Shown: positions 2-3,815 of the stretch, one piece after another
Position numbering within the stretch: position 1 is the first letter of the stretch
Layout: every line of letters starts with the position of its first letter
Assembly (NCBI GenBank): GCA_015228935.1
Contig: JADGCO010000007.1
Coordinates: forward strand, 14,389 to 76,041
DNA length: 61,653 bases
Direction of reading: 5' to 3'
Source of the DNA: Magnetococcales bacterium
Lineage (GTDB): Bacteria; Pseudomonadota; Magnetococcia; Magnetococcales; DC0425bin3
Notes under the pieces: model-generated
Databases searched by the model: none
Seen by the model: only the letters and a program-made list of their open reading frames with translations
Told to the model about the DNA's origin: nothing
Translations under genes and position numbers: made by a program

Positions 2-121
2 CCGGCTCCCCAATCAAGCAAGGAACCGGCTCCCCAATCAAGCAAGGAACCGGCTCCCCAATCAAGCAAGGAACCGGCTTCCGAATCAAACAAGGAACCG
101 GCTCCCCAATCAAGCAAGGAA
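2..121 (+). repeat. 24-bp tandem repeat encoding octapeptides
   Basis: Five in-frame 24-bp units start at 2, 26, 50, 74 and 98. Units 1-3 and 5 are identical; unit 4 carries a few substitutions (PASESNKE). A sixth, decaying unit starts at 122. The array may continue to the left of the window. The near-identity of the units suggests recent expansion by slippage. Confidence 0.9.
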
Positions 122-376
122 CCGGCTCCTGAAAAAAACGCAGATCCGGCAACCAGGAAACCAGAAGATCAGATGCCCGGAAAGAAAAAGGAGACAGAGG
201 CAACCTCGACGGCATCCCCGGTCCCACCGGCCCCTCAGGCAACCCCACCTGCAATGCCCCCTCCGGCGTCAACCCCCTCCCCCGCTCCAGCAGCGGTCCG
301 CAAAGAAACCAGCTACTCCAACAGCGACCTCTTGATTGACACCGAACCTTCCACCCCGGTCAAAAAGAAAAAGTAG
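2..376 (+). CDS. C-terminal part of a repeat-containing hypothetical protein (starts before window)
   Basis: The frame is open from base 2 to the TAG at 374-376 and has no start in view, so only the C-terminal 124 residues are present. It opens with five or more copies of the octapeptide PAPQSSKE. A Pro/Ala/Ser/Thr-rich stretch follows, and the end is basic (VKKKK). Nothing here identifies a catalytic domain. The composition suits a disordered linker or tail, perhaps of an envelope or scaffold protein. The coding assignment rests on the in-frame repeat and the uninterrupted frame. I do not recognise the family. Confidence 0.6.
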   Translation, partial: PAPQSSKEPAPQSSKEPAPQSSKEPASESNKEPAPQSSKEPAPEKNADPATRKPEDQMPGKKKETEATSTASPVPPAPQATPPAMPPPASTPSPAPAAVRKETSYSNSDLLIDTEPSTPVKKKK

Positions 377-388
377 AATACAATACGA

Positions 389-1012
389 TCAACCGTGCAG
401 GGCGCGCTGCACCAGCCAGCCAATCACTTCAGACCGGGAGCCGCCACCCAGTTTTTTGGCCACAGTATCCAGGTCCCGGACCAGATCCTCACTCAACATC
501 ACATTGACCTGGGCGTTTTTGTCGATCACGTAAAAAACTTCGACGAAGAAAGGCTCTTCCTGCAAACGAAAAAATTTGCGGATGCTTTCCAGATCGCTTC
601 GGTAGTCCACTTCATAATCAGCGCCGACAATCACGGTCGGCGGCGTCAGGTTGATCTGACCACAGTTGGCAAACCCTTCCATGCGCGTTTGAATGCCACC
701 GGAAATCATATTGCCCAGTTCGGCAAAACCGTCCCTGGCCTCATCCGTCAGGGTGCGATACCCCTCACCGGAAAGGGCACCGGCCAGAATCCGTGCCACC
801 TTGTTGGAAGTGACCAGACGCACGCCACCATTAAAGCCCCCATTCATGCCCACCATGGCCGAGGCCTCGGCCCGGGCCGCCACATGGGGCACATCCGAGG
901 GTTTGGCCACCCCCTGGGCGGGCACCACATCCAGAAACAACATGGTATTGACAATCTCCATGACCGAATCTTCCGCAGCCTGGAGAATCAAATTCTTCAG
1001 TTCAGGTTTCAT
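389..1012 (-). CDS. CheX-like phosphatase-fold protein with C-terminal ribbon-helix-helix segment
   Basis: The N-terminal ~160 residues resemble the CheC/CheX/FliY phosphatase family. The key helix reads DGFAELGNMISGG, giving the family's ExxN dephosphorylation pair. The last ~40 residues (VNVMLSEDL...SRSEVIGWLVQRAL) look like a ribbon-helix-helix (MetJ/Arc/CopG) unit: a beta strand followed by two helices. CheX removes phosphate from CheY-P, so a DNA-binding tail is unexpected. The ATG at 1012 is chosen because a GGAGG-rich ribosome site lies just upstream; a longer frame reaches 1144. It lies 73 bp downstream of the MCP-like gene, probably in one operon. The CheX call is fairly sure; the RHH call is an inference from pattern. 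Confidence 0.75.
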   Translation of the reverse strand: MKPELKNLILQAAEDSVMEIVNTMLFLDVVPAQGVAKPSDVPHVAARAEASAMVGMNGGFNGGVRLVTSNKVARILAGALSGEGYRTLTDEARDGFAELGNMISGGIQTRMEGFANCGQINLTPPTVIVGADYEVDYRSDLESIRKFFRLQEEPFFVEVFYVIDKNAQVNVMLSEDLVRDLDTVAKKLGGGSRSEVIGWLVQRALHG

Positions 1013-1085: not shown

Positions 1086-1568
1086 TCAATCCAACCCCGC
1101 GCCACTCCCTCCCAGACCGATACCAGCCGTCTGGAATATTTCACTGTTGGCGGTGCTGATCCTCTGGATGCTCTGGATCATTTCCCCGGCGGTACTGGTC
1201 GCTTCCGACGCATTGGATTGGATTTCATCCACCCGCTCGGCAATCATGTTGGTGGCCTCGGCGGTCTGCCGGGAGAGATCCTTCACTTCGTTGGCCACCA
1301 CGGCAAACCCCTTGCCCGCCTCACCTGCACCGGCAGCTTCGATGGAGGCATTCAAAGCCAGCATGTTGGTCTGTCCGGCAATGTTTTTGATCACCTTGAC
1401 CGCCTTGCCGATTTCCTGACTCGACACGGCCAGTTTTTCGATCACGGCAAAATTGCTGCGGGCATGCTGAATCGCCTGTTCCAGTTCCCGATTGGTCTCT
1501 TCAGCCTTGCGATACAAGGCATCAACCAGCGCCTGTGCCTCTTCCAGTGTACCCACTTTCTTGGCCAT
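1086..1568 (-). CDS. short MCP-like signalling-domain protein
   Basis: This is a ~160-residue soluble coiled-coil protein containing the highly conserved hairpin tip of methyl-accepting chemotaxis proteins ([20 protein letters not shown], then [18 protein letters not shown]). The tip binds CheA and CheW in full-length receptors. It has no transmembrane segment and no sensor domain. The descending helix stops soon after STANSEI, so it is much shorter than a normal signalling domain. The ATG at 1568 (MAKKVGTL) follows a plausible ribosome site; the frame opens at 1673. It is either a truncated receptor or a minimal soluble partner of the CheX-like gene downstream. Confidence 0.7.
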
Positions 1569-1716: not shown

Positions 1717-2181
1717 TCAAAGGCTGGAGGCTGAAGAGATCGGTGAAAACTCCAGCCAGAAAGTCACCGGTCCGTCATTCACCAGCTCCACGTCCATATG
1801 TGCGCCGAACACACCCCGTTGCACAACGACGCCTTCGCCTTCCAAAAACGCACAGAAACGATTGAACAGAGGTTCCGCAACCTCCGGAACCTCGGCCCCC
1901 CCCAGGGAGGGGCGATACCCTTTTTTCAAATCAGCCGCCAGCGTGAACTGGGAGACGGCCAGAATTTTTCCCTGGATATCCCGGCAGGAGAGGTTCATGC
2001 GTTCCCGGGCATCGGCGAAGATGCGCAAACCGGCCACTTTGCGGGCGGCACGCTGTGCATCTTCCTCGCCATCCCCGCGTTCCACGGCCACAAATACCAG
2101 GATGCCCTGACCAATCCGTGCCACTTCCGCACCAGCGACCCGCACCGCCGCCTGCGAAACCCGTTGCACGAGCAGGCGCAT
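1717..2181 (-). CDS. dtd: D-aminoacyl-tRNA deacylase
   Basis: The 154-residue product matches DTD, which hydrolyses D-amino acids mischarged on tRNA (D-Tyr-tRNA and others) in the cytoplasm. Both signature motifs are present: SQFTL at about residues 77-81, and NDGPVT at about 135-140, which supplies the Gly-cisPro chiral selectivity motif. Length is normal for the family (about 145-150). It begins 6 bp after the stop of the single-domain response regulator, so the two are probably co-transcribed. Confidence 0.96.
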   Translation of the reverse strand: MRLLVQRVSQAAVRVAGAEVARIGQGILVFVAVERGDGEEDAQRAARKVAGLRIFADARERMNLSCRDIQGKILAVSQFTLAADLKKGYRPSLGGAEVPEVAEPLFNRFCAFLEGEGVVVQRGVFGAHMDVELVNDGPVTFWLEFSPISSASSL

Positions 2182-2187
2182 CGCCCG

Positions 2188-2562
2188 TCAACCCGGTTGC
2201 AGAGCTGCGGCAACAGCCGCCAAAATTTCCTGGGATGTAAACGGTTTGGCAACCATGATGCAGGCCCCCAACCGTCTGGCAACATCCAGGCTCGTTTCTG
2301 CGGTGAGAACCCGCCCCCCACCCGACAAGGCAATGATGCGCATCCGGGGTTCCAGGGTTTGCAGTTCCCGGATCACACCGACACCATCCAGTTCCGGCAT
2401 CAGCAGATCGGTGATCACCACATCAGGCCGCATCTCCTTGTAAAGAGCCATGCCGGCACGACCGTCAGGTGCCACGCGCACCGTGTGCCCTTCTTCCAGC
2501 AAGATTGCCGACAACAATTGACGAATGACAGGATCATCATCCATGACGAGAATCTGCGCCAC
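2188..2562 (-). CDS. single-domain response regulator
   Basis: This is a stand-alone CheY-like receiver. The acidic pair falls in MDDDP (about residues 7-11), the phospho-acceptor Asp in VITDLLMPELDG (about residue 52), and the conserved Lys in AKPF near the C-terminus. There is no output domain, so it should act through protein contacts. I chose the GTG at 2562 because GGAGGTGG sits just upstream; a longer frame opens at 2628 but overlaps the preceding OmpR-type gene. It sits between that gene and dtd in a minus-strand operon. Confidence 0.88.
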   Translation of the reverse strand: MAQILVMDDDPVIRQLLSAILLEEGHTVRVAPDGRAGMALYKEMRPDVVITDLLMPELDGVGVIRELQTLEPRMRIIALSGGGRVLTAETSLDVARRLGACIMVAKPFTSQEILAAVAAALQPG

Positions 2563-2594: not shown

Positions 2595-3326
2595 CTATCC
2601 GTTGCGTTCTTTTTCCACTCTGGAGCAAAACACGTATCCGGCACTCCGCACCGTTTTGATCAATTGTGGTGTACGCGGATCATCATGCAACCGGCGTCGC
2701 AGCCGGCTGACCTGCATATCGATGGTGCGATCAAAATGGTCGGTTCCGCGACCCTGGGTCAAGTCCAACAATTGATCACGCGACAACACCCGATTGGGAT
2801 GATTCAAAAAGATGCTCAACAAGAGGTACTCACTCCCTGTCAAAGCCACCGACACCCCTTCTGGAGAGGTGAGATTCCGGGAAAGGGCATCCAGTTTCCA
2901 GCCCGAGAAAGCATAGATGATGTCATCGAGATCTTCGGATTTTTGCTCCGGGGACAATCGAGTCCGTCGCAAGACACTTTTGACCCGAGCCAACAATTCA
3001 CGCGGATGAAAAGGCTTGGGCAGATAATCATCAGCCCCCATTTCCAGGCCAATGATCCGATCCATCTCTTCGCCTTTGGAACTGAGGATGATGACTGGAA
3101 TGCTGGAGCGGGCACGCAGATTCCGGCAGAGTACCAGACCATCTTCTCCGGGCAGGACAAGATCGAGAATGATCAGGTCCACCTGTTCAACACCACGCTC
3201 CAAACCCCGCCCATCCGGGGATGTGGTGACACGATACCCCTCTTTTTCCAGACAACTCCCCACGAGCTTCCGTATATCCGGGTCGTCATCAACCACCAGA
3301 ATATGGCTTGCGGATTCCATGGTCAT
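2595..3326 (-). CDS. OmpR/PhoB-family response regulator
   Basis: The 243-residue protein has an N-terminal receiver (VVDDD at 11-15, phospho-Asp about 55 in LIILDLVLPG, Lys about 104 in LPKPF). A C-terminal winged-helix follows, with the family hallmarks LTGSEYLLL, LSRDQLLD and TIDMQVSRLRRRL ending in IKTVRSAGY. It should bind direct-repeat promoter sites when phosphorylated. No histidine kinase lies next to it. The HPt protein upstream could be its phosphodonor, which is an inference from proximity. Confidence 0.95.
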   Translation of the reverse strand: MTMESASHILVVDDDPDIRKLVGSCLEKEGYRVTTSPDGRGLERGVEQVDLIILDLVLPGEDGLVLCRNLRARSSIPVIILSSKGEEMDRIIGLEMGADDYLPKPFHPRELLARVKSVLRRTRLSPEQKSEDLDDIIYAFSGWKLDALSRNLTSPEGVSVALTGSEYLLLSIFLNHPNRVLSRDQLLDLTQGRGTDHFDRTIDMQVSRLRRRLHDDPRTPQLIKTVRSAGYVFCSRVEKERNG

Positions 3327-3374: not shown

Positions 3375-3686
3375 TCAATCATAGCAGACTTCCACCCGTT
3401 GCAGGTACGCCACCAATTCGTCAATTTCATGTGAAATTTCAGAAATATGCCCATCTCTGGCAGCATTTTCCACCTTGCGGCCGATCTCCGTGATCACATC
3501 AAACCCGTAACCCGCCCCGGACCCTTTCATGCGATGACCGATAATCCGGAGACCATTCACGTCATTTGCCAGTATGGCTTGGCGCATGACATCCACATCG
3601 CGCCACCGATTTTGGATATATCCCGGGACGATCTCTGCCAGATCCTTGTCAATGCGAACCAATATTTTTTCGGTATCTGCTCCCAT
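3375..3686 (-). CDS. HPt-domain phosphotransfer protein
   Basis: This is a small helical protein of about 103 residues carrying the HPt motif HRMKGSGAGYG, with the phosphorylatable His at about residue 51. It is a stand-alone HPt without a kinase core, so it should relay phosphate between a hybrid kinase and a response regulator, probably one of the two encoded just downstream. The ATG at 3686 follows a G-rich ribosome site; an earlier in-frame start at 3725 is possible. Confidence 0.9.
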   Translation of the reverse strand: MGADTEKILVRIDKDLAEIVPGYIQNRWRDVDVMRQAILANDVNGLRIIGHRMKGSGAGYGFDVITEIGRKVENAARDGHISEISHEIDELVAYLQRVEVCYD

Positions 3687-3815
3687 GGAACACCCCCCAT
3701 TCGCATTTGTTAACCGCCTGATCATCGGAAAACAAAATCAAAAAAGCAATTTTCAACTGATAGACGGCAATCACTGAAAAAAAATGAAAGTCCCCTTGCA
3801 AAAAAGGTTGGGTCG

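Follow-up and report, generated by a model that had tools for sequence, protein, structure and literature searches.

The locus raises the question of whether a CheX-type phosphatase in the Magnetococcales carries a C-terminal ribbon-helix-helix (RHH) unit of the DNA-binding type and, if so, what such a unit would do for an enzyme of this class, as response-regulator phosphatases are generally regarded as soluble proteins or as ones bound to arrays or to the motor. Coordinates below refer to the window, that is, the whole stretch of 61,653 nucleotides that was analyzed.

The CheX Domain

The gene in question and its parts, as delimited by profile matches and modeling, are as follows:

389..1012, reverse strand: CheX-RHH fusion gene, 207 aa, with the ATG at 1012 and the stop ending at 389
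527..1012, reverse strand: predicted CheX domain, residues 1-162 (Pfam CheX, AF2 model, and 1squ alignment)
710..721, reverse strand: predicted ExxN catalytic motif, E98-L-G-N101
392..511, reverse strand: predicted RHH tail, residues 168-207, with the strand QVNVML, helix A at 175-187, and helix B at 193-206

A purine-rich run, read from the sequence as GGAGGAG, lies directly 5' of the ATG. The Pfam CheX profile matched residues 51-144 with an E-value of 1.4e-18 and 67.1 bits (cut-off 27), and a PDB sequence search with the whole protein returned the CheX of Thermotoga maritima at E 7.2e-11. The AF2 model, built from 34 rows with a mean pLDDT of 86.9, places the last CheX strand at residues 153-162, and T. 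maritima CheX (1squ_A) aligned to model residues 5-162 with Z 19.2 and an rmsd of 2.0 over 150 aligned positions. The same fold, over residues 1-164, is found in the CheX structures of T. maritima (1squ/1xko), Borrelia burgdorferi (3hzh), and Vibrio (6vpw), at Z values from 17.7 to 19.2. The requirement of CheX for its ExxN motif is described in PMC3510030. This motif, common to CheX phosphatases generally and to CheX-RHH, had been called intact by an initial sequence-only reading of the locus, which agrees with the alignment: AELGN occupies residues 97-101, giving the pair E98 and N101, and both residues are invariant in 12/12 fused rows. Sequence and model together indicate that residues 1-162 comprise a complete CheX-type phosphatase domain with the ExxN motif present.

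An RHH-Like Tail Outside the CheX Fold

The fusion would have been called into question by a C-terminal segment that packs within the CheX fold. Instead, the known CheX structures align to model residues 162-164 and none further, and the tail is therefore an addition to that fold; solved CheX chains finish with the last CheX strand and lack the RHH tail that CheX-RHH bears. The tail in the AF2 model follows a short linker of lower confidence and comprises helices at 175-187 and 193-206, both with pLDDT near 90. In the monomer model of the tail both helices are in place and the RHH strand is unassigned, this strand being one that pairs between subunits.

The RHH_1 profile scored the window's own tail at 14 bits within the full-length protein and at 18 bits alone, below the cut-off of 20.5. 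Across the fused set, RHH_1 was matched at E <= 1 by nine of the 12 tails, the window's included, the best of them at 3.2e-7. When the 12 tails were combined into a profile and searched against the PDB, NikR (E 3.3e-4) and CopG (E 2.3e-3) ranked with the top chains. Because these two lines coincide, the RHH match of the tail is beyond chance. Scanning 13 genomes with RHH_1 gave 27 matches, three of which are fused tails flagged above the cut-off (G004 at 29.4 bits, G015 at 27.5, and G005 at 20.4, or 20.7 with neighbors). Four full-length orthologs were scanned: those of G004 and G015 passed both the CheX and the RHH_1 Pfam cut-offs, and those of G012 and G018 lie above the CheX and below the RHH_1 cut-off.

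As a PDB fold search with the whole model was filled by CheX chains, the tail was modeled and searched separately (12 rows, pLDDT 82.5). Foldseek returned NikR, CopG, Arc, MazE9, MatP, and plant TCP-domain chains, with E-values all >= 0.1, as is expected for 47 residues, so that the RHH reading rests on the agreement among these matches. A fold comparison of the isolated tail gave Z values of 5.0-5.5 for the PutA RHH, CopG, and Arc, which are low for a very short chain (CopG: Z 5.4, rmsd 2.5 over 42 residues). The two-domain reading proposed from the sequence, CheX followed by a C-terminal RHH, is thus supported by the Pfam CheX match, the RHH profile matches, and the fold matches of the tail alone; the tail, of about 40 residues, is to all appearances, in sequence and model, an RHH-like unit separate from the CheX fold. 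It resembles RHH_1 and CopG-NikR-type proteins in its sequence pattern, its two helices, and its profile and fold matches alike, and it differs from them in standing C-terminal on an enzyme and in mostly lacking basic strand residues.

Spread, Phylogeny, and Selection

The fusion was found in 12 of 48 Magnetococcales genomes, spread over eight families (G000-G003, G004, G005, G012, G014, G015, G016, G017, and G018, with that of G002 split over two contigs), and CheX itself was matched at E <= 1e-20 in 42 of the 48. Most of the comparison CheX paralogs without a tail stop at about residue 162-168. Elsewhere in the phylum, 350 genomes were covered; four of them have CheX at E <= 1e-12, in frames of 156-177 aa that have no room for a tail. 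A search with the window protein itself recovered three Magnetococcales loci and none beyond (other phyla being covered by this single-sequence query alone), its nearest database relatives being Magnetococcales MAGs at 81-86% and 63% protein identity, and a plasmid search for CheX-RHH gave no match.

In a 34-row tree built from the CheX part, 22 rows of which are plain ones that represent a selection of CheX paralogs, the fused rows cluster, needing three changes rather than one. The exceptions are a plain second copy of G016 nested inside the cluster, likely a case of tail loss, and a long plain branch, the window genome's own paralog G000d, which joins G012. For three pairs within one genus, dN/dS amounted to 0.11-0.22 in the tail and 0.02-0.04 in the CheX part, values that are rough at a pS of 0.55-0.74; for the pair G016/G017 the ratio is undefined because synonymous sites are saturated. 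These ratios suggest that the tail is under purifying selection, with more freedom than the CheX part.

An artifact, either a frameshift or assembly error or a part of CheX mistaken for an RHH, might be suspected in a draft genome of 4.7 Mb in 197 contigs whose tail falls under the RHH_1 cut-off. Against this stand the recurrence of the fusion across genomes and families, dN/dS values below 0.25, the end of solved CheX chains at model residue 162-164, and the two orthologs that pass both Pfam cut-offs, and we consider such an error very improbable indeed. The NCBIfam scan of the window protein gave no architecture name, and a search of a literature library found no paper joining "CheX" and "ribbon-helix-helix"; the fusion, which might have proved an already named common architecture, was thus found under no such name in these two sources. 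CheX-RHH is a real, conserved domain architecture built from known parts and apparently undescribed.

Gene Neighborhood of the Fusion

Upstream of the fusion gene, the window carries the following genes:

1086..1568, reverse strand: stand-alone MCP signaling hairpin of 160 aa, without sensor or membrane part (MCPsignal E 1e-28)
1717..2181, reverse strand: Dtd, D-aminoacyl-tRNA deacylase (Pfam Tyr_Deacylase), in the cluster in six genomes
2188..2553, reverse strand: single receiver (REC) protein, candidate substrate (Pfam Response_reg)
2595..3326, reverse strand: OmpR-type response regulator (REC and winged helix), candidate substrate (Pfam Response_reg and Trans_reg_C), in six genomes
3375..3689, reverse strand: Hpt phosphotransfer protein (Pfam Hpt E 6.4e-7), in six genomes

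The small MCP gene precedes CheX-RHH on the same strand, with 73 bases between it and the CheX start. Synteny, as determined by tblastn and a codon-scored gene call, shows the genes for Hpt, the OmpR-type regulator, Dtd, and the small MCP adjoining the fusion in six of the 12 fused genomes (G000, G001, G002, G003, G016, and G017), four of which also keep the REC protein; contig ends cut the Hpt gene in G016 and the fusion itself in G002. The fusion lies elsewhere, away from the Hpt/OmpR cluster, in the remaining six, and the regulators of the cluster are therefore not its neighbors there.

The small MCP family, whose members span about 150-160 aa, is matched at 60-100% identity within open frames of <= 225 aa in 24 of the 48 genomes, nine of the 12 fused genomes among them, and a further match in G032 lies in a 608-aa frame. 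Within the genus the small MCP is 97% conserved, more than the neighboring phosphatase. The pairing of CheX-RHH with a minimal MCP, which the sequence-only reading had singled out, holds insofar as the MCP is conserved beside the fusion in the six clustered genomes, but the MCP is also common in genomes without the fusion, and the two therefore form no obligate pair. Outside the fused cluster the small MCP gene is often found beside genes that we take, from their N-terminal sequences, to be ferrochelatase-like and DsrE-like.

Several further features of these neighborhoods were observed. The G001 cluster (L040 4663-6423) has an extra REC-PAS-GGDEF protein encoded between the genes for Hpt and the OmpR-type regulator. 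In G004 (L044 5294-9931), the CheX-RHH gene lies near that of a 1013-aa HAMP-MCP-hemerythrin receptor, and the gene between the two is, by its sequence, presumably ferrochelatase-like. A bactofilin gene faces CheX-RHH in G000, G003, and G017; the window starts just past an N run, inside the repeat-rich C-terminal part of this bactofilin (2-376, forward strand; L054 7721-8765), where a 24-base tandem repeat encodes PAPQSSKE and the reading frames differ on either side of the N gap.

DNA-Facing Positions of the Tail

Three alternate strand residues face DNA in RHH proteins, and the start of helix B touches the DNA backbone. The strand triad of the window protein consists of Q168, N170, and M172, none of them acidic, and the triads of the 12 tails read QNM, LNM, LNM, QNS, KST, KST, PSS, QSE, KNI, HEQ, RDA, and LEE. 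Lys or Arg occurs in the triad of 4/12 fused tails versus 17/23 other RHH_1 domains of the same 13 genomes (Fisher p 0.03, or 0.11 with distinct triads only), and Asp or Glu in 4/12 versus 1/23 (Fisher p 0.04), the rows being related so that these p values serve as a guide only. The 23 controls are the 27 RHH_1 matches less the three fused tails and L098, which has a stop just before the strand. The start of helix B is Arg or His in 12/12 tails. Overall, the tails carry a net charge close to zero, no different from that of the control RHH domains.

Since the triads are variable, with few basic residues and with acidic ones in four of the 12, binding to a classical operator appears unlikely as a function common to all 12 tails. 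In the window's own clade, such binding may still occur. No operator-like palindrome or common block stood out when the Dtd-MCP and CysG-Hpt gaps were aligned with those of relatives.

A Second CheX Lineage with Another C-Terminal Module

Another CheX lineage of the Magnetococcales ends in a helical module with the pattern LPxxAExxVREEIERIKxEG. This module is in frame with CheX in G005:C44, G012:C25 (twice in G012), G013:C291, G038:C8, and G039:C18, and in the window's own genome (G000:C102:7846-8683, locus L004) it forms a separate 109-aa frame whose start lies a few bases beyond that of CheX. All eight aligned stretches matched DUF2497 weakly (best E 7e-4, the bit scores shown being below the cut-off), a family that we take to be that of the PopZ pole-organizing proteins, and the module had no match among PDB chains at E below 0.7. 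With a second CheX lineage bearing a different module, the addition of C-terminal modules to CheX would seem to be a habit in this order, which favors the view that Magnetococcales CheX gained them for assembly or placement.

Possible Dimerization, Docking, and DNA Anchoring

We tentatively propose, somewhat short of an even chance, that CheX-RHH forms a response-regulator phosphatase dimer, joined through its RHH units and seated on DNA, which dephosphorylates the receivers of its cluster locally at the promoter. A CheX-type phosphatase would have acquired the RHH unit at its C-terminus, and the RHH strands of two subunits would pair to give an obligate dimer. The strand-paired dimer is modeled on PutA and on RHH proteins in general, an analogy that makes RHH-mediated dimerization likely. 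With less certainty, the RHH dimer would sit on DNA, its most probable place being close to the genes of its cluster. There the CheX heads would remove phosphate from a partner receiver, either that of the OmpR-type regulator or the lone REC protein, and switching off would thereby take place locally, at the promoter. The small MCP would connect the relay with CheA-type kinase arrays. In its narrower form, with the RHH dimer setting the CheX heads beside a DNA-bound OmpR-type regulator that is dephosphorylated at the promoter, the proposal is rather unlikely; if true, it would mean that a two-component response is ended at its site of action.

Dimerization or docking alone is the closest rival to DNA anchoring. 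The tail would then serve purely as a dimerization or docking module of a phosphatase that acts on soluble or array-bound CheY-like proteins and has no contact with DNA, a reading that we regard as doubtful and yet well worth weighing. The acidic strand residues of four tails and the scarcity of basic ones are in keeping with it, as are a pN in the tail about two to four times that of the CheX part and the quite different C-terminal helical module borne by other CheX relatives of the order. In addition, the RHH of EcPutA mediates dimerization (PMC5293562). However, homodimers are already formed by B. burgdorferi CheX, as stated in PMC3641820, and an extra dimer module is therefore not obviously required; its solved chain matches the CheX part of our model alone. 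The conserved start of helix B and the absence of acidic residues from the window's triad likewise weigh against a tail that never meets DNA. If CheX-RHH were a homodimer through its CheX part too, the second dimer contact could either stiffen the dimer or link dimers into chains.

A third possibility is a switch in the manner of PutA, in which the RHH would keep its own cluster repressed until a phosphorylated receiver, engaged by the CheX heads, releases the protein from DNA. NikR, which is an RHH plus a sensing domain, was the top match of the tail profile, and the architecture resembles that of trifunctional PutA, likewise an enzyme with an RHH domain, which, according to PMC5293562, both dimerizes it and binds DNA. 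There, the RHH addition is described as having made a monomeric enzyme a DNA-binding dimer. PutA differs from CheX-RHH in that its RHH is N-terminal, its enzyme is another one, and no phosphorelay is involved. No common palindrome was detected 5' of the cluster or the MCP gene, and we hold this switch to be improbable.

Two other systems offer partial parallels. The RHH-HisKA-REC proteins of Lokiarchaeum join an Arc-type RHH to two-component parts (PMC5847659) and differ in being archaeal and in carrying kinase and receiver rather than phosphatase parts. Myxococcus CdbA shows an RHH role beyond plain operator binding, linked to c-di-GMP (PMC7156744), and differs from CheX-RHH in having no enzyme domain.

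Implications

CheX in the Magnetococcales acquires C-terminal modules more than once. The conservation of a phosphatase with a dimer module of the DNA-binding type suggests that dephosphorylation may be tied to a place, be it DNA or a fixed dimer, and CheX-RHH is a small protein that would allow a direct test of such place-bound dephosphorylation.
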